Assembly: GCA_947625505.1 (NCBI GenBank)
Contig: CANQON010000002.1
Span: 1 to 64,000 of the forward strand
DNA from: an uncultured Bacilli bacterium
GTDB lineage: Bacteria > Bacillota_I > Bacilli_A > RF39 > UBA660
Length of the DNA: 64,000 nt
Direction: 5' to 3'
Shown: in pieces, positions 48,778 to 58,782 of the stretch
Position numbering within the stretch: position 1 is the stretch's first letter
Layout: each line of letters opens with the position of its first letter
The notes under the pieces: model-generated
Told to the model about the DNA's origin: nothing
What the model saw: only the letters and a program-made list of their open reading frames with translations
Database searches by the model: none
Position numbers and translations under genes: made by a program

Positions 48778-51426
48778 ATGCAGAAATTTAAATACAATAT
48801 GTCAGTAATTATCCCAATATACAATATGGGTAAATATTTAAGAGAATGTTTGAATTCAATTATTAACCAAGATACAGATTTAAATAAGATAGAAATAATT
48901 GCTATTAATGATGGTTCTTCTGATGATAGTTTAAATATTTTAGAAGAATATGCAGATAAGTATGATAACATAGTTGTTATTAATCAAGAAAATCAAGGAT
49001 TATCAAAAACACGAAATAATGGAATTAAAATTGCTCAAGGTAAGTATATAATGTGCTTAGATCCTGATGATACGATTAGTAAGGATACAGTTGGAAGTTT
49101 AGTTGAGTTCTTTGATAAACATTATGATGAAATTGATTTATTAGCTTACAAGATAATACCTGTTACCAATGGTAAATTAAGTAAGAAGTTACACTATCGA
49201 TACCAATATTTAAATCATGATGGTATATATGATTTAAATAAATATATTTATGCATGTATAACAACTATTAATCATTGCGTAAAAAATTTAGGTAAGGATA
49301 GAATTTATTTTGATGAGACTCCTGGCTTTAGACAAGAAGATCAAAAATATGCTTTAGATGTTATTAATAGAAAAATGAAAATAGGTTATATTACCAAGGG
49401 TACATATTATTATTTGCAGCATGAAAGTAGTGTAGTTCATTCAAAATTTCATGCCTATTATGTTTGGGATAAATCCATTGCTTTTTGGGAAAAAGAATTT
49501 TTAAGAAATCCTTGTTCTTATTTACAAGCAATGTTTATGCATGATTTATCATGGAAGATGAGTCAAAATAAATTATTTCCTTATCAATATGAGGGAGAAG
49601 AATACGATAAGCAAATTATTCGCTTACAAAAATTATTGAATCAAGTATCTGATGATGTTATTTTGAATCATCCTGGAATACCTAATGATTATAAATATTT
49701 TTTTATAAACATGAAGACTAATAATCATTTCATTATATCTTTAGATAATAATCTTTTTGCAGTAGCAAATAATGATAAAATAATCTATTCTACTAATAAG
49801 TTAAAGTTAAATATTTTAAAGATGAAAATAGAGGAAAAGTGTATTAAATTAATTGGTTATATATATGATCCTATTTTTAGTTATACATCTAAACCACAGC
49901 TATTTTTAGTAGATGCCTATGAATCAAACAAGAAGAAAGAAGTAGCGCTACGAGAATCATCTTATTCTTATATTAATTCTAGTAATAAAATAGGTAATGC
50001 ATTTATGTTTGAAACAATAATTAATACGGATGAAACAAAAGGATTTAATTTTGAAGTTTGTATTGATGAAAAAATAATTAATTGTGAATTTTGGGTTAAA
50101 ACAAGTATATGCCCATTTGGTTCTGATATTGGTCGTAATGTTATATTTAAATATCATAAAAAATATGAACTTACACGTGATAGAAAAAGTATTTTAATTA
50201 CTAATTATCGATTGAAAGAAAAAATATATAATAGAAGAATTATTAATAATTATTATTTTTATAATGATATTAAAAGATATATTTTTCGTAAAATAATATT
50301 ATTATTTAAATTTTTTAAACATAAAAATACATGGTTATATTATGATTGTAAGGGTGTTGAAAAAGATAATGCCTATTATCAATTTATTCATGATATAAAT
50401 AAAAAAGATGGTGTTAAAAGGTATTATGTAAGCGCTAATACTAAAGAGGATATAAACAAATTATTTAGTTTTAAGAATAGAAGAAAAGTAATTCGTTTTA
50501 AATCTTTAAAACATAAACTATATTATACTATAGCTAGTAAGATTATAACTGCTTACTCAGAAGACTATAACTGTCAACCATATACCCAATCTTCTTTAAA
50601 AAAATATAATGATCTTTTTGAGCAACCAGAAATAATTTATTTACAACATGGTATATTACATGCTCACACACCAGATAAATATCACTTTGATCGTTTGTTT
50701 ATTGATAAAGAAGTAATATCATCTAATTATGAAAAAGAAAATTTAATTAATAATTATGGCTTTACTCTAGAACATTTAATATTATCTGGTATGCCACGTT
50801 ATGACTTTATTTCACAAAATAATGAATCTAAAAAAGTTATATTATTTGCTCCTTCATGGCGATCATGGTTAATCGGTAGAATAAAAAATGAATGGAAACC
50901 TACCATAGATATATTTAAAGATTCATCTTTTTATGATGAAGTAAATGCTTTTTTAAATTCTAAAGAGTTAAATGAATTACTTGAAAAATATGATTATATC
51001 TTAAATTTCCAATTACATCCAATATTTAAGCCATACAAAAAGTTATTTAATATTAATAATAGTCGTATTAAAATTAATGATAATAGTTTTAAGGAATCTG
51101 ATTATAAAGTTTTTATTACTGACTTTTCAAGTTATGTATTCGATTTTGTATATTTAAAAAGGTCTATTTTATATTTTTTCCCTGATTATGATTTATTTAA
51201 AGCTGGATTTAATTATTATCGCGAACTTGATTTAAAGTTTGAAGATGGCTTTGGGCCATTTACCAAAACTGCTAATGAATTAATAAGTAATTTGGAAAAG
51301 TTATTAAAAAATGATGGTAAGCCAGAAAAAAAATATTATGATAGAGCTAATAACTTCTTTTTATACAATGATAATAATCAAAGAGAACGTATATATGAAG
51401 AACTTATTAAAAGTGAAGAAAGATAA
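48778..51426 (+). CDS. Bifunctional GT2 plus CDP-polyol phosphotransferase fusion
   Basis: N-terminal MSVIIPIYNMGKYLRECLNSIINQDTDLNKIEIIAINDGSSDDS; C-terminal IIYLQHGILHAHTPDKYHFDR, LFAPSWRSWL, FQLHPIF, VFITDFSSYVFDFVYLKRSILYFFPDYD. Confidence 0.87.
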   Translation: MQKFKYNMSVIIPIYNMGKYLRECLNSIINQDTDLNKIEIIAINDGSSDDSLNILEEYADKYDNIVVINQENQGLSKTRNNGIKIAQGKYIMCLDPDDTISKDTVGSLVEFFDKHYDEIDLLAYKIIPVTNGKLSKKLHYRYQYLNHDGIYDLNKYIYACITTINHCVKNLGKDRIYFDETPGFRQEDQKYALDVINRKMKIGYITKGTYYYLQHESSVVHSKFHAYYVWDKSIAFWEKEFLRNPCSYLQAMFMHDLSWKMSQNKLFPYQYEGEEYDKQIIRLQKLLNQVSDDVILNHPGIPNDYKYFFINMKTNNHFIISLDNNLFAVANNDKIIYSTNKLKLNILKMKIEEKCIKLIGYIYDPIFSYTSKPQLFLVDAYESNKKKEVALRESSYSYINSSNKIGNAFMFETIINTDETKGFNFEVCIDEKIINCEFWVKTSICPFGSDIGRNVIFKYHKKYELTRDRKSILITNYRLKEKIYNRRIINNYYFYNDIKRYIFRKIILLFKFFKHKNTWLYYDCKGVEKDNAYYQFIHDINKKDGVKRYYVSANTKEDINKLFSFKNRRKVIRFKSLKHKLYYTIASKIITAYSEDYNCQPYTQSSLKKYNDLFEQPEIIYLQHGILHAHTPDKYHFDRLFIDKEVISSNYEKENLINNYGFTLEHLILSGMPRYDFISQNNESKKVILFAPSWRSWLIGRIKNEWKPTIDIFKDSSFYDEVNAFLNSKELNELLEKYDYILNFQLHPIFKPYKKLFNINNSRIKINDNSFKESDYKVFITDFSSYVFDFVYLKRSILYFFPDYDLFKAGFNYYRELDLKFEDGFGPFTKTANELISNLEKLLKNDGKPEKKYYDRANNFFLYNDNNQRERIYEELIKSEER

Positions 51427-51504
51427 AAGAAATTTTATCTTTTTTTGATAACTTTATTATTTAATTCATTTTTGATATAATGGATTTAGAAAGAAGTTGA
51501 TTAG

Positions 51505-52221
51505 ATGATATATGCAGAAATACTTGCTGGTGGAGTAGGTAAAAGAATGGGTAATACAGATATGCCCAAACAATTTTTAATGTTAGGAAATAAACCTATT
51601 ATCATTCATACACTAGAACAATTTTTATTAGCTAATGAAATAGCTAAAATAATTATTGGATGCCCAAAAGATTGGATGGGATATATGAATGATTTAGTTG
51701 CAAAATATATTGGTAAAGATGATCATATCGTAGTTATTGAAGGAGGAGCAGATCGTAATGGTACAATTATGAATGCTTGTCATTATATCGAAGATAACTA
51801 TGGATTAACAGATAAAGATATTATTATAACTCATGATGCTGTTAGACCTTTTGTTGATTATCGTATTATTGAGGATAATATTAAGGCTGCTAAAAAGTTT
51901 GATGCTGTTGATACTATTATTCCTGCTGCGGATACAATTGTAGAATCAACAGATGGTAAGGTTTTAAGTAGTATTCCTGTAAGAGATTATTTATATTTAG
52001 GACAAACACCACAAACTTTTAAAATTAAAGAATTAGTTGAAACTTATGATTCATTAACAGATGATGAAAAGAAAATTTTAACAGATGCATGTAAGATGTT
52101 TGTTATTAAAGATAAAAAAGTAGGTTTCATACGTGGTGAAGAATATAATATGAAAGTTACAACTATGCATGATTTAAAATTAGCTAATGCCATATTGGAA
52201 GTTGGTTTAAATCATGATTAA
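51505..52221 (+). CDS. tarI: Ribitol-5-phosphate cytidylyltransferase (TarI/IspD family)
   Basis: IYAEILAGGVGKRMGNTDMPKQFLMLGNKPIIIHTLEQF, ITHDAVRPFVDYRI; adjacent tarJ favours TarI over IspD. Confidence 0.88.
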   Translation: MIYAEILAGGVGKRMGNTDMPKQFLMLGNKPIIIHTLEQFLLANEIAKIIIGCPKDWMGYMNDLVAKYIGKDDHIVVIEGGADRNGTIMNACHYIEDNYGLTDKDIIITHDAVRPFVDYRIIEDNIKAAKKFDAVDTIIPAADTIVESTDGKVLSSIPVRDYLYLGQTPQTFKIKELVETYDSLTDDEKKILTDACKMFVIKDKKVGFIRGEEYNMKVTTMHDLKLANAILEVGLNHD

Positions 52222-53233
52222 TTGTCATTATCGATTACATTCACCTAAAAGAATAGGTGTCGACTTTGTTGAAGAAGAACTTACTGATGATAAAGTAATA
52301 GTTAAACCATTATATTTATCTATATGTGCTGCTGATGAAAGATATTATCAAGGAAAAAGAGATCCTAAGGTATTAGCTAAAAAATTACCTATGTCATTAA
52401 TTCATGAGGCCGTAGGTGAGGTATTAAAAGATCCTAAAGGAGAGTTTAAACCTGGTACTAAAGTTGTATTAATACCTAATACACCTGTTGAAACAGATGA
52501 TATAGTAAAAGAAAATTATTTAAGAAGCAGTAAATTTAGAGCCAGTGGTTTTGATGGTTTCATGCAAAGTATTGTTCTAATGGATCGTGGACGTATTATT
52601 CCTTATGAAAATGTTGAAGATCGTGTAGCTGTTCTATTAGAATTAATGAGTGTTACAATGAATGCTTTAGAGCATTTTGATAAATATAGTCATTTAAAAA
52701 AACAAACTATTGGTGTATGGGGATGTGGTAACGTTGGATATGTTACTTCCTTAATATTAAAAAAACTATATCCAAATGCCAAAATAATTGTTTTTGGTAC
52801 TAATACTAATAAGCTACATTATTTTCAATTTGCTGATGCAACTTATTTAGTAAGTGATATTCCAGAAGATTTAACTGTTGATCATGCCTTTGAATGTGTT
52901 GGAGGTAGGGGAGCAGAATCAGCTATTAATCAAATGATAGATATTATAAACCCTCAAGGATCTATTGCTCTTATGGGTGTATCTGAAGAGTTAGTAGGCA
53001 TTAATACTAGAATGGTATTAGAAAAAGGTATTACTTTATTAGGTAATAGTCGTAGTGGCTATGAAGACTTTGATGCTGCTATTAAGTTTTTAAATAATTT
53101 CCCAGAAACAATTGATTACTTAAAGAGAATTATTTCTGAGGAAGTTGTTGTACATTCTATTGGTGATATGACAAAAGCTTTCGAACTTGATAGTAATGTT
53201 GATTTTAAAACAATTATGAAGTGGGAAATATAA
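52214..53233 (+). CDS. tarJ: Ribulose-5-phosphate reductase / zinc-type alcohol dehydrogenase (TarJ)
   Basis: KPLYLSICAADERYYQGKRDP, GVWGCGNVGYVTSLILKKLYP; overlaps tarI. Confidence 0.85.
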   Translation: MINCHYRLHSPKRIGVDFVEEELTDDKVIVKPLYLSICAADERYYQGKRDPKVLAKKLPMSLIHEAVGEVLKDPKGEFKPGTKVVLIPNTPVETDDIVKENYLRSSKFRASGFDGFMQSIVLMDRGRIIPYENVEDRVAVLLELMSVTMNALEHFDKYSHLKKQTIGVWGCGNVGYVTSLILKKLYPNAKIIVFGTNTNKLHYFQFADATYLVSDIPEDLTVDHAFECVGGRGAESAINQMIDIINPQGSIALMGVSEELVGINTRMVLEKGITLLGNSRSGYEDFDAAIKFLNNFPETIDYLKRIISEEVVVHSIGDMTKAFELDSNVDFKTIMKWEI

Positions 53234-53262
53234 AAAATAAATAGAAACAGGAGGATTAATAA

Positions 53263-55905
53263 ATGAATAATAAATTTAAGATATCCGTCATTGTTCCTAT
53301 ATATAATGTTGAGAAATATTTAGAAGAATGTATTGAAAGCGTAATACATCAAACAATTGGATTCAAAGAGAATATTCAACTGATATTAGTTAATGATGGA
53401 TCACCTGATAATAGCGAGCAAATATGCTTAAAATACAAAGAAAAATACCCAAATAATGTTATTTATATTAAGCAAAAAAATGCAGGGGTATCAGCTGCTA
53501 GAAACAACGGTTTGAAGCATGCTGAAGGAAAATATGTTAACTTTTTAGACTCTGATGATAAATGGGATTATGGAGCCTTACAAAAAGGTTACAATATGTT
53601 AGAAGAGAATGATGAAATAGATTTAGTAGGCTTTCGTTTAAAATTTTTTGATCATCAAAAAGGTTATCATGCTCTTGATTATAAATTTACTAAAGACGGC
53701 ATAATAGACATTAATGATGAACCTGAAAATATTTTATTACATATTAATTCTGCATTAATAAGAAAAGATGCTTTAAATGGTAAAGAATTTTGTGAGAGTT
53801 TAAAAATAAGTGAAGATACAAGACTTCTTTATGAAATTATTTTTGAAAAAGAAAAATATGGTATTATTTCAAGTTTAAATTATAACTATCGTAAGAGAAG
53901 TGATGAATCAAGTGCTATTCAAACGTCAAAGACTAAAAAATATTGGTATTTAGATACATTAGAATTGGCTCATAAATACTTAATGGACTATTCTATCAAG
54001 AAGTTTAAGGTTGTTCATCCTTATCTACAACATTTTTTAGCATATGATTTGTTTTGGCGTATATATGCTCAGATTGCTATTAAACTTTCTGATGAAGAAC
54101 GAAAAAAATATATTGATTCTATTAAATATTTAATCGATAATATTGATGATAAAGTACTAGCTTTTCAATTTAAAAATCGTGTTGATAGATTATTAATGGT
54201 ATATCAAATTAAATATGGAAAGAATCTTGAAGAAAAACTGGTATTTAAAGATAATGCAATCTACATTGATAATGATAAAGTTATCGATTATGCTCAATTT
54301 CAAAATACGATTAATTTATTTGAAATGCATGATGATAAGTTAATGATAGTTGGAGAAGTAAATAGTACTTTACCTATATCTTTGTTTTATACTTATGATA
54401 ATAAAAAAATTAATATTGAAACATTTTTAATGACTAATGAAGAAGATTTTGGAATAAATAATCAAAAATATGGTTATCGTATCTATATCAATCTTGATCA
54501 ATCTAGTACATTATCTTTTTCTATGAATTTATTTGGACATGATATTCCTTTAACAAATTATTTTACGCATTTTTCACGTCTAAATGAATTAAAAAAAGGA
54601 TATTATTATGAAAATAAGTACTTGTTTGTTAAAAGTAAAAATCATCAGAGTATTATTATTGAACGAAAACCATCAGTGTTTAAAATTATAAAACATGAAT
54701 TAATTTATTTAATTTCTATTTTATGCAGTTTTAAATTGAAAGCTTTTATTATTCGCTTTCTTTATTGGATAACTAAACCTTTTATTAGAAAAAATATTTG
54801 GTTGTTTTGTGATAGAGAGTTTATGGGAGAAGATAGTGGTGAAATCTTCTTTAGATACTTCAATAATCATAATAAAGATAAAAAAATTAAAACTTATTTC
54901 ATCATAGATAAACATTATGATGATTATAAAAGAATGCAACAATATGGTAATGTTGTTAGTTATCATACTTTTAAATTTATGTTGTTATTTTTACATTCAA
55001 AAGTTTTAATTTCATCACATGCTGATGGATATATTAATAATCCTTTTGGTTCTTTTAGACCTTATTATGTAGATTTATATCGTTTTAAGTATATTTATTT
55101 AACACATGGAATATTGTTACATGATTCTTCTAGTTGGTTAAATAGAATTAATAAGAATTTTGCTTTAAATGTTACTACTAGTCCTATGGAATATGAAAGT
55201 ATTATTAAAGGTAAATATTATTTTGAAGATGATGAATTATTAAAGACAGGTATACCTAGATATGATAATTTAAAAAATTTAGATATCAAGGAAGAGAATA
55301 AAATATTATTTATGCCTAGTTGGCGTAGTTTGTTAGTTCCTAATATTATACCTGGAACTCAAAGGAGAGAATATAATCCTGAATTTAAAGATAGTGAATA
55401 TTATAAATTTTATGATCGATTACTTAATGATAAAAAATTACTTGATGTTCTTAAAGAAAAAAATCTAAAAATTAAATTCTGCGTTCATCCAAGTTTTCGA
55501 GCTCAATTTAAAGACTTTATTGGTAATGATTATGTTGAATTTGCTATTGATGTAAATTCACAATATGAAACATTATCTAGTAAAATGTTAGTAACTGATT
55601 ACTCATCAGCTGCTTGTGATTTTGCTTATTTAAATAAACCTGTTATATATGCTAACTTTGATTTAGATCATATCTATGATGTACATTATTATAATAAAGG
55701 ATATTTTGATTATGATAGAGATGGATTTGGCCCAAATTGTCAAAGTTATGATGAAACATTAAACGAAATAATCAAAGTAATTAATAATAATTTTAAAGTT
55801 GAAGAAAAATATAAAAAACGAATGAAAAATTTCTTCTTTTATCGAGATAATAAAAATTGTGAACGTATTTATAATGAAATTATTAAACGTTTACATAATA
55901 AATAA
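53263..55905 (+). CDS. Bifunctional GT2 plus CDP-ribitol/CDP-glycerol phosphotransferase (TarL-like) fusion
   Basis: ISVIVPIYNVEKYLEECIESVIHQTIGFKENIQLILVNDGSPDNS; C-terminal YIYLTHGILLHDSSSWLNR, LFMPSWRSLLVPN, VTDYSSAACDFAYLNKPVIYANFDLDH. Confidence 0.87.
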   Translation: MNNKFKISVIVPIYNVEKYLEECIESVIHQTIGFKENIQLILVNDGSPDNSEQICLKYKEKYPNNVIYIKQKNAGVSAARNNGLKHAEGKYVNFLDSDDKWDYGALQKGYNMLEENDEIDLVGFRLKFFDHQKGYHALDYKFTKDGIIDINDEPENILLHINSALIRKDALNGKEFCESLKISEDTRLLYEIIFEKEKYGIISSLNYNYRKRSDESSAIQTSKTKKYWYLDTLELAHKYLMDYSIKKFKVVHPYLQHFLAYDLFWRIYAQIAIKLSDEERKKYIDSIKYLIDNIDDKVLAFQFKNRVDRLLMVYQIKYGKNLEEKLVFKDNAIYIDNDKVIDYAQFQNTINLFEMHDDKLMIVGEVNSTLPISLFYTYDNKKINIETFLMTNEEDFGINNQKYGYRIYINLDQSSTLSFSMNLFGHDIPLTNYFTHFSRLNELKKGYYYENKYLFVKSKNHQSIIIERKPSVFKIIKHELIYLISILCSFKLKAFIIRFLYWITKPFIRKNIWLFCDREFMGEDSGEIFFRYFNNHNKDKKIKTYFIIDKHYDDYKRMQQYGNVVSYHTFKFMLLFLHSKVLISSHADGYINNPFGSFRPYYVDLYRFKYIYLTHGILLHDSSSWLNRINKNFALNVTTSPMEYESIIKGKYYFEDDELLKTGIPRYDNLKNLDIKEENKILFMPSWRSLLVPNIIPGTQRREYNPEFKDSEYYKFYDRLLNDKKLLDVLKEKNLKIKFCVHPSFRAQFKDFIGNDYVEFAIDVNSQYETLSSKMLVTDYSSAACDFAYLNKPVIYANFDLDHIYDVHYYNKGYFDYDRDGFGPNCQSYDETLNEIIKVINNNFKVEEKYKKRMKNFFFYRDNKNCERIYNEIIKRLHNK

Positions 55906-55912
55906 TTGTAAT

Positions 55913-55932
55913 AGCATTAAAATATGCTTTTT
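55913..55932 (+). terminator. Probable terminator after the tarL-like fusion gene
   Basis: AGCAT-TAAAAT-ATGCTTTTTG. Confidence 0.6.
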
Positions 55933-55951
55933 GCATATACTATAAGTGAAT

Positions 55952-55980
55952 TTGACTTTTATAGGCAAATTTGCTATAAT
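55952..55980 (+). promoter_or_regulatory. Sigma70/SigA-type promoter for the large non-coding RNA
   Basis: TTGACT (55952-55957), 17-nt spacer, TATAAT (55975-55980); predicted TSS about 55987. Confidence 0.88.
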
Positions 55981-55986
55981 GTATCT

Positions 55987-56606
55987 CGTTAATGGCGCAT
56001 TATTCTAGTCAATAACATTTGTTACGAAGGCGGGGGTAAAAGACCGCAAAAGAGCATATCTGTGAAACTTTTGGTGTTTGCTTTTTACGCCCAGTTTAGG
56101 GTGAATGCTGGAAGGTAGAGTGTTGGGCATCCACAATGGCATGTGCAAATGACCCACCATTCATGGAGACCTATTTATGTGTTAAGCCTATACGTACCAT
56201 ACTGATGGACTTAATATGGAATAGGATTGAACCTATCATGTGACGCAAGTTATGGGTAGTGTAGCTTGTCTTGAGTGGTTATTGGGGATAACTCTAGTGT
56301 TAATAATAACCGTAGCTAAGTTTTATTAACGAATTACTGATTTGAAACAATAATTGCAAAAAAGAACTATGAACAAGTGTGTTGGGGAGGAAATCTCCTA
56401 GAGTGTTTGTTAACGTGGGATTCCAGTGCGTACTTAGTGGTAATCAAGCCATACATACAGTGATGTAGTATTGATTTCTTTAAAGGGGAACCGCAATTTG
56501 GTAACGAATTGTAGAAATTAGAGAAACTCTGCTTGACCTATGACGTAAAGTTAACTATGTTAATTGCCATATAATAAGATAAGAAGAAAGGACTTAGTCC
56601 TTTTTT
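55987..56606 (+). ncRNA. Large structured non-coding RNA, candidate OLE (ornate large extremophilic) RNA
   Basis: About 620-nt non-coding gap with own promoter and terminator; less AT-rich than flanks; multiple complementary segments (56032-56042/56081-56092; 56221-56225/56232-56236; 56277-56283/56305-56311; 56494-56498/56507-56511; 56520-56530); immediately upstream of an OapA-like gene. Confidence 0.8.
56587..56606 (+). terminator. Terminator at the 3' end of the large ncRNA
   Basis: AAAGGAC-TTA-GTCCTTTTTT. Confidence 0.8.
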
Positions 56607-56612
56607 GTTTCG

Positions 56613-56641
56613 TTGACAAATATTACTAAATAAGATAAAAT
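56613..56641 (+). promoter_or_regulatory. Separate promoter for the OapA-like gene
   Basis: TTGACA (56613-56618), 17-nt spacer, TAAAAT (56636-56641), downstream of the ncRNA terminator. Confidence 0.8.
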
Positions 56642-56661
56642 TATTATGGTTAGGAGTTAGT

Positions 56662-57231
56662 ATGAAAAAGGAAATAAAAAATCAACTAGAGGACAAGAAA
56701 AAAGCTAAACTTAAAGCTAATTTAAAATGGAGTTTAAGTTTAACTGTAGTAGCAGCTATTATATCTGTTACTTTATCATTTATATCGGAAATAGCTATGA
56801 AAGATGTAAGTTTATTAATTGGTGTTATTGTTATATTATCTTTCATTGGTATTGGTATTATATTTGATATGGTAGGTGTTGCTGTTACATCAGCTGATGA
56901 AGCACCTTTTCATGCTATGCGTTCTAAAAGAGTTAAGGGTGCTAATATGGCAGTTACTTTAAAGAAAAGTGCTAATAAAGTATCATCATTTTGTTGTGAT
57001 GTTATTGGTGATATCTGTGGTATTATATCAGGTGCTGCAGGAGTAGCTGTTGCAGCCCAAATAACTAAAATATTTGGTATATCTACTTTAGTTAGTAGTT
57101 TAATTGTTACAGGTATGATTGCTGCTTTAACGATAGGTGGAAAATCATTAGAAAAGCCTGCAGCTATAAATAATGGAAATAAAATATTATATCAATTTGC
57201 TAAAATCCTTAGTATATTTAGTAAAGCTTAA
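56662..57231 (+). CDS. oapA: OapA-like (OLE-associated protein A / CorB-DUF21-like) integral membrane protein
   Basis: 189 aa, about four TM segments; IGIIFDMVGVAVTSADEAPFHAMRSKRVKGA, VSSFCCDVIGDICGIISGAAG, ALTIGGKSLEKPAAINNGNKI; position directly after a large ncRNA. Confidence 0.78.
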   Translation: MKKEIKNQLEDKKKAKLKANLKWSLSLTVVAAIISVTLSFISEIAMKDVSLLIGVIVILSFIGIGIIFDMVGVAVTSADEAPFHAMRSKRVKGANMAVTLKKSANKVSSFCCDVIGDICGIISGAAGVAVAAQITKIFGISTLVSSLIVTGMIAALTIGGKSLEKPAAINNGNKILYQFAKILSIFSKA

Positions 57232-57242
57232 TGGAGGATTAT

Positions 57243-58043
57243 ATGAGAAAGTTTTTTTATAACATTAGAAAGTATTTTAAATATGCCATTTATTCAGCTA
57301 AAGCAGAATTAAAAAGTGAAGTTGCTGACTCATATCTTAACTGGTTATGGTGGGTAATTGAACCAATCTGTTTTATGTTAATATATTACTTTGTTTTTGG
57401 TGTTATATTTCCAAATAATGAAAAGTATTTTGCATCTTTTGTTTTTATTGGTTTATCAGCCTGGGAATTTTTTAATCGAATGATTAATGGTAGTGTTAAA
57501 TTAATAATTAATAATCGTGATTTAGTTACTAAAGTATATATTCCTAAATATATATTATTACTATCTAAATCATTTACTTATTTATTTAAATTAGGTATTT
57601 CTTTATTAATTGCGTTTGCTCTTATGCTTTATCAAGGAGTACCATTTACTTGGCATTTCTTACTATTTATACCAATTTTAATAATATTATATCTTTTATC
57701 TTTTGGCATTGGATTATTATTAATGCATTTTGGTGTTTCATTTAATGACTTAGCTAATTTAACAGAAATTGGTTTAAGAATGGTATTCTATGTATCTGGT
57801 GTCTTCTATAATATAACATCACGTTTAGGTAATAGACATGTTGGACCTATTAAGATAGGTGGCTTTTTACTTAAAGCTAATCCAGTAGCTTTTTGTATGG
57901 ATTCATTACGTAGAGTCATGTTATATGCTAAATTACCTGATTTTAAATTTTTACTTATATGGTTAGTGATTAGTATATTATTATGTGCATGGGGAGTACA
58001 TGTAATTCATAAGAATGAAAATAGTTATGCGAAGGTGATATAA
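57243..58043 (+). CDS. tagG: Teichoic acid / polysaccharide ABC exporter permease (TagG-like)
   Basis: SEVADSYLNWLWWVIEPICFMLIYYFVFGVIF, ABC-2 type permease; followed by TagH-like ATPase; ATG 57243 after TGGAGG. Confidence 0.88.
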   Translation: MRKFFYNIRKYFKYAIYSAKAELKSEVADSYLNWLWWVIEPICFMLIYYFVFGVIFPNNEKYFASFVFIGLSAWEFFNRMINGSVKLIINNRDLVTKVYIPKYILLLSKSFTYLFKLGISLLIAFALMLYQGVPFTWHFLLFIPILIILYLLSFGIGLLLMHFGVSFNDLANLTEIGLRMVFYVSGVFYNITSRLGNRHVGPIKIGGFLLKANPVAFCMDSLRRVMLYAKLPDFKFLLIWLVISILLCAWGVHVIHKNENSYAKVI

Positions 58044-58044
58044 A

Positions 58045-58782
58045 GTGGCAGATAAAAAAAAGATTGCCGTTACGGTTAAAGATCTTCATATTACATATCG
58101 TGGACTTAAGAAGACATCCATTCGTGCTTCTTGGAAAAACTTTGGTAATAAAATCGAATTGTTTCATGCTTTAAAAGGTGTAAGCTTTGAGATAGAAGAG
58201 GGTAAAATATTAGGTATTATTGGTACTAATGGTGCTGGTAAATCAACTATGTTACGTGCTATAGCAGGTATCTTCTCTCCTGATAAAGGTAAAATTGATT
58301 TACATGGTAATACAATTTCTTTACTATCAATAGGTGTTGGTTTTAATAAAAAGTTAACAGGACGTGAAAATATTTTCTTATCAGGTATGTTACTTGGGTT
58401 CTCTGAAGATGATATTAGAAAAAAAGAAAAAGATATAATTGAATTTGCTGATATAGGTGATTTTATTGATAAACCTGTTAAGACTTATTCATCAGGTATG
58501 TATTCTAAATTAGCATTTGCTATTACAGCTATTTTAGAGACTGATATTATGCTTATTGATGAAGTATTATCAGTAGGAGATGCTAAATTTAAAGAGAAAA
58601 GCTATAATAAAATGAAAGAGTTAATTAGCGATGAACATCGTACCGTTATTATTGTTTCTCATAGTCTTGATACTATTGAAGAGTTATGTGATGAAGTATT
58701 ATGGCTAAATGAAGGTGAAGTTGTTAAAATAGGAAAACCTAAAGATATTTTACCTGAATATCGTGAATTTATGAAAGACTAA
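58045..58782 (+). CDS. tagH: Teichoic acid / polysaccharide ABC exporter ATP-binding protein (TagH-like)
   Basis: Walker A GTNGAGKSTMLRAIAG, KTYSSGMYSKLAFAI signature, IMLIDEVLSVGD. Confidence 0.92.
   Translation: MADKKKIAVTVKDLHITYRGLKKTSIRASWKNFGNKIELFHALKGVSFEIEEGKILGIIGTNGAGKSTMLRAIAGIFSPDKGKIDLHGNTISLLSIGVGFNKKLTGRENIFLSGMLLGFSEDDIRKKEKDIIEFADIGDFIDKPVKTYSSGMYSKLAFAITAILETDIMLIDEVLSVGDAKFKEKSYNKMKELISDEHRTVIIVSHSLDTIEELCDEVLWLNEGEVVKIGKPKDILPEYREFMKD

Follow-up and report, generated by a model that had tools for sequence, protein, structure and literature searches.

A predicted full-length OLE RNA gene beside an oapA-like gene in the genome of an uncultured gut Bacilli lineage

OLE is a large, elaborately folded and membrane-associated bacterial RNA, and among structured RNAs of bacteria it is one of the largest for which no biochemical function is known. 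The proteins OapB and OapC are essential in H. halodurans; as partners of OLE they are common, not universal. OLE has been found in 2,822 Bacillota genomes including those of the uncultured gut clade RF39, shortened forms among them (Fernando and Breaker, 2024; PMC11332333), and the same work describes OLE variants as 'commonly found in RF39 organisms', reports an anticorrelation between OLE and MpfA, and names a DxxxD motif as distinctive of OapA. A CNNM-like fold has also been published for the OapA of H. halodurans, and a homodimeric kissing loop of OLE was observed by cryo-EM (PMC12286853, PMC12265935).

The locus described here lies within positions 1 to 64,000 of contig CANQON010000002.1 (assembly GCA_947625505.1), hereafter called the window, in a 1.66-Mb MAG. 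The closest relatives that carry a name are 'uncultured Bacilli' of the rabbit and ruminant gut. The initial annotation had implied that an OLE RNP would be a surprise in an AT-rich lineage with a cell wall, which it is not, as OLE in RF39 was reported in 2024 (PMC11332333); the window OLE is confirmatory in this respect.

Like the OLE RNAs of H. halodurans and C. acetobutylicum behind Rfam RF01071, the window RNA has the full consensus (1-616), a length of ~600 nt and oapA directly downstream, together with the A-rich P4 loop, the L5.1 and L6.1 loops and a palindromic P9 loop. It differs from them in having lost the P11 hairpin, in a genome without OapC and apparently without OapB, and in its teichoic-acid-type neighbours. 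The Shine-Dalgarno mimic CCUCC at the bS21 site in P6 of the H. halodurans RNA is not visible in the window RNA (GACCCACCAUUC); the bS21 gene is present in the genome. The RF39 'variant 2' (PMC11332333) probably comes from the same order of bacteria, and about 30 of 96 sampled relatives of the window genome have shortened forms as well, whereas the window RNA retains P7 and P8 and is thus of the full-length form. A mix of full-length and P7/P8-less OLE, with OapB and OapC absent, is likewise shared with the published RF39 description, which makes RF39 the likely placement of the window genome.

Identity and fold of the RNA

The initial annotation had pointed to a gap of about 755 nt without a credible ORF and had assigned about 620 nt of it to the OLE class. 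The gap measures 756 nt, from the stop at 55905 of a TagF-like glycosyl/glycerophosphotransferase gene to the ATG at 56662, and the only ORF of at least 40 aa inside it has 51 aa and lies on the minus strand. A cmscan of the whole window against all 4,227 families of Rfam 15 returned OLE as the sole family above threshold: RF01071 (gathering cut-off 50 bits) matched 55976-56586 on the plus strand over its full length, model positions 1-616, with 353.9 bits (E 2e-100), and the runner-up was a 9-bit tmRNA fragment below its cut-off. Both the class assignment and the predicted length were therefore right. Size alone would also suit another large ornate RNA, whether ROOL, GOLLD, HEARO, raiA or an unknown class, and the same search refutes this reading, which is left with next to no probability; the four named classes were ruled out by it. 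The first ~11 nt of the Rfam match overlap the OLE promoter, and I infer a transcription start near 55987. Coordinates of all features are collected in Table 1.

Table 1. Positions of predicted features in the window, followed by the shortest OLE forms found in related genomes
Feature	Position	Strand	Remarks
OLE promoter, TTGACT-17-TATAAT	55952-55980	+	11/12 consensus; TG before the -10
OLE RNA	55987-56586	+	Rfam match 55976-56586, 353.9 bits, model 1-616 complete; covariation
P3, 5' arm CAUUUGUU	56016-56023	+	pairs with 56372-56379
P4 hairpin, A-rich loop	56029-56048	+	covariation; dimer bridge B1 from PMC12286853
L5.1 loop, GCCCA	56089-56093	+	invariant or nearly; dimer bridge B2 (PMC12286853, PMC12265935)
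L6.1 loop AAUGGCAU	56135-56142	+	from the alignment; dimer bridge B2 (PMC12286853, PMC12265935)
P9 apical loop AGCU, self-complementary	56314-56317	+	dimer bridge B3; palindromic in 37/38 relatives
P3, 3' arm AACAAGUG	56372-56379	+	pairs with 56016-56023; covariation
Intrinsic terminator of the OLE gene	56584-56606	+	10 pairs and a U run
Second promoter, TTGACA-17-TAAAAT, upstream of oapA	56613-56641	+	between terminator and oapA
oapA, OLE-associated membrane protein A, 189 aa	56662-57231	+	DxxxD at residues 113-117
ABC-2 permease, TagG-like	57243-58043	+	probably co-transcribed with oapA (window genus only)
ABC ATPase, TagH-like	58045-58782	+	
mini-OLE, genome G078	L133:4169-4546		
mini-OLE, genome G084	L134:4163-4543		
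mini-OLE, genome G305	G305:C9:18515-18892		

The fold was assessed in an alignment of 38 full-length relatives, for which the Rfam pairs were transferred to the window RNA and supplemented with P3 and a short hairpin of 3 bp. Paired cells amounted to 87.6%, compared with 75.0% after shuffling and 36-46% when the partner was slid, two-sided changes occurred at 117 of the 164 pairs, and two-sided cells numbered 868 against 289 in the shuffled control, all of these being pair counts that control for relatedness only partly. Comparison of the aligned relatives thus shows the Rfam consensus structure to be upheld by strong covariation. Many core columns show no variation, and the long upper stem of P9 aligns poorly (41% paired). 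P3, which is missing from Rfam's structure line and was added by hand, also covaries; its inner six pairs are 96.9% paired with two-sided changes at all six.

Four helices had been proposed from the window sequence, and half of them stand. CAAUU/AAUUG (56494/56507) and the hairpin GAG-AAA-CUC (56521-56529) are backed by the OLE model or by covariation, whereas GGGGGUAAAAG and CUUUUUACGCCC do not pair in OLE, the first lying in P4 and the second in P5.1, and GGUUAUU at 56277-56283 has its partner at 56349-56355 and not in the AAUAACC at 56305.

The P9 loop was palindromic in 37 of the 38 relatives, in the form of four different palindromes (GGCC, AGCU, GUAC and GCGC), compared with a mean self-complementarity of 5.5% across other ungapped columns. 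That the palindrome is kept despite sequence change fits a homodimer joined by kissing loops, as in the cryo-EM structures; the window RNA has the features for dimerisation, namely the self-complementary P9 loop and the L5.1 and L6.1 loops, and dimerisation itself is predicted.

The folding energy of the region is unremarkable (z -1.7) and was discarded as uninformative about a structured RNA; the OLE identity is drawn from homology and covariation instead. On these grounds it is practically certain that a genuine OLE RNA is encoded here.

The oapA-like gene and the transcription of the locus

The start of the downstream gene lies 75 nt from the end of the Rfam OLE match. Pfam and NCBIfam recognised no family in its 189-aa product and a sequence profile search of the PDB found no relative, so a comparison of folds was used. 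The AlphaFold2 model is all-helical (pLDDT 87), and its six best PDB fold matches are all CNNM/CorB/CorC Mg2+ transporters, the best Foldseek match having an E of 2.9e-3, which misses 0.001, with TM up to 0.55. D113 and D117 were invariant in 25 aligned relatives. Set against the description of OapA, the protein agrees as a ~21 kDa four-helix membrane protein that has DxxxD and is CNNM-like. The neighbour is OapA-like, as the initial annotation had claimed, and its predicted fold is CNNM-like. The model resembles the membrane domain of the MpfA / CorC / CNNM Mg2+ transporters, but the protein differs from these in its length of 189 aa, in having DxxxD and in having neither CBS nor CorC_HlyC.

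The near-consensus promoter and the strong terminator noted at the outset were both recovered. Most of 45 relatives have, at a similar distance from a conserved CUAGU, a promoter matching at least 10/12 positions with a spacing of 16-18 nt, and by this comparison the putative OLE promoter is conserved and sigma-70-type. A second promoter downstream of OLE is likewise found in the relatives L011, L012 and L016. Because a terminator follows OLE and oapA has its own promoter, the two look like separate transcription units here, in contrast to H. halodurans, in which OLE is polycistronic. A clear terminator between OLE and oapA is absent in many relatives, in which OLE runs on into oapA; this, and the position of the RNA directly 5' of oapA, would suit a riboswitch-like cis-regulatory leader of oapA and tagG-tagH in place of a free-standing RNA. 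Such a leader is very improbable given the terminator and the separate oapA promoter in the window genus, the kilobases that separate OLE from oapA in some relatives (e.g. 123838-124401 and 128546-129137 in genome G001), and the established standing of OLE as a class of trans-acting ncRNA. The locus is very probably best explained as an OLE RNA gene accompanied by oapA, the gene of its partner.

A wall-polymer gene cluster surrounds OLE and oapA at 48778-58782 of the window, in the order of two fused glycosyltransferase/TagF-like proteins, ribitol-5-phosphate cytidylyltransferase-like and dehydrogenase genes, OLE-oapA, and the TagG/TagH-like pair. The tagG-tagH neighbours suggest a wall link, but the neighbourhood is limited to the genus. 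A cell-wall-specific role, in which the OLE-OapA locus would serve the assembly of teichoic-acid-type polymers, could be read from the TagF-like, TarI-like, TagG and TagH neighbours and from the almost contiguous oapA and tagG; it appears unlikely, as TagG lies beside oapA in only 10 of 121 loci, apparently of one genus and with some loci from the same genome, and other members have different neighbours. That OLE is generally linked to teichoic acid genes was rejected, the association being limited to the window genus. By eye, SpoIIR-like and MntP-like genes were recognised a few kb upstream of a short OLE (L152, genome G023), which fits published neighbourhood links of OLE to sporulation and metal ions.

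Co-occurrence with OapA and absence of other partners

Of 386 genomes of the order, 216 had OLE; 14 control genomes had none. Among 146 genomes of the order, 96 had OLE, 97 had OapA and 95 had both, leaving three discordant cases. In the two OapA-only genomes, oapA sits at the end of contigs 2,940 and 5,088 nt long that stop immediately upstream of the gene, and both were dismissed as counter-examples since they are contig-end artefacts; in the OLE-positive genome G112, which has a full-length OLE (G112:C19:42076-42678, 359 bits), OapA was not detected. The co-occurrence of predicted OLE and OapA genes is thus shown to be near-perfect in the order. Neither was present in 48 of the 146 genomes, and those sampled among them were also without MpfA-type transporters.

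The OapC family (L7Ae) was absent from all 34 genomes of the same family, compared with its presence in 20 of 23 from other families of the class. A candidate for OapB was not found in genome G000, which has only two KOW proteins, of 108 and 179 aa, whose sizes fit ribosomal L24 and NusG; the genome is apparently without OapB, and a diverged copy is possible. These absences could mark the RNA as a degenerate, non-functional relic, yet this has very little probability: covariation maintains the structure, which is evidence of purifying selection, many core columns are invariant, and the locus has an intact promoter, terminator and OapA. Retention of OLE after loss of OapB and OapC has moreover been published for RF39 and TANB77 (PMC11332333), and absence of the two is therefore not disqualifying for the OLE class.

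The domain CorC_HlyC, a hallmark of MpfA-type transporters, was found in 0/34 genomes of the same family and 20/23 of other families, against 23/34 and 0/23 for OLE. This MpfA contrast reproduces the published anticorrelation (PMC11332333), but it is a single phylogenetic one, and MpfA is also missing from family members that have no OLE.

The mechanism proposed for OLE and OapA is drawn from work in H. halodurans and the cryo-EM papers, and as a whole it has roughly an even chance of being correct. OLE RNA would be transcribed alone at about 600 nt, fold, and dimerise via L4, L5.1-L6.1 and P9 loop contacts, and OapA, a relative of MpfA/CorC Mg2+ transporters, would anchor the dimer at the membrane. 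The OLE RNP may then take over the work of MpfA-type exporters under Mg2+, cold, alcohol or carbon stress, and in the window lineage it would do so with no recognisable OapC and, apparently, no OapB.

Shortened forms in the order

OLE RNAs of the order fall into lengths of about 540-617 nt and about 480-520 nt, with three of ~380 nt. The three mini-OLEs, from three genomes of two genera, are without P5, P6, P7 and P8 but keep a promoter-like sequence, P3, P4 and all of domain 2; an OapA gene lies just 3' of each, and P9 is a short hairpin with a palindromic UGAUCA loop. They are mutually 90-95% identical, and this identity among copies from two genera makes an assembly fault unlikely. Partial hits in G237, G249, G283 and G402, whose matches do not start before model position ~280 and in G237 and G249 begin at a contig end, were excluded from this count.

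The 480-520-nt forms (L135-L152) kept L5/L6 and have mostly lost the palindromic P9 loop, whereas forms of 534-562 nt (L145-L148) are without P7/P8 and kept the palindrome. Dimer contacts appear to have been lost independently among shortened OLE forms. It is rather likely that the mini-OLE is a pared-down OLE in which, if it is functional, L5.1-L6.1 contacts and the OapC/bS21 site would be dispensable and P3-P4, OapA and domain 2 would form the core, with dimer contacts being modular in the order. The literature consulted describes OLE variants 1 and 2 only; as far as it shows, the mini-OLE falls outside both types and is the one part considered new here.

The window locus adds a full-length OLE from a gut lineage whose reduced genome has no OapC and apparently no OapB, and the natural OLE deletions of this clade, including the ~380-nt form, point to an indispensable part of the RNA and to one protein, OapA.
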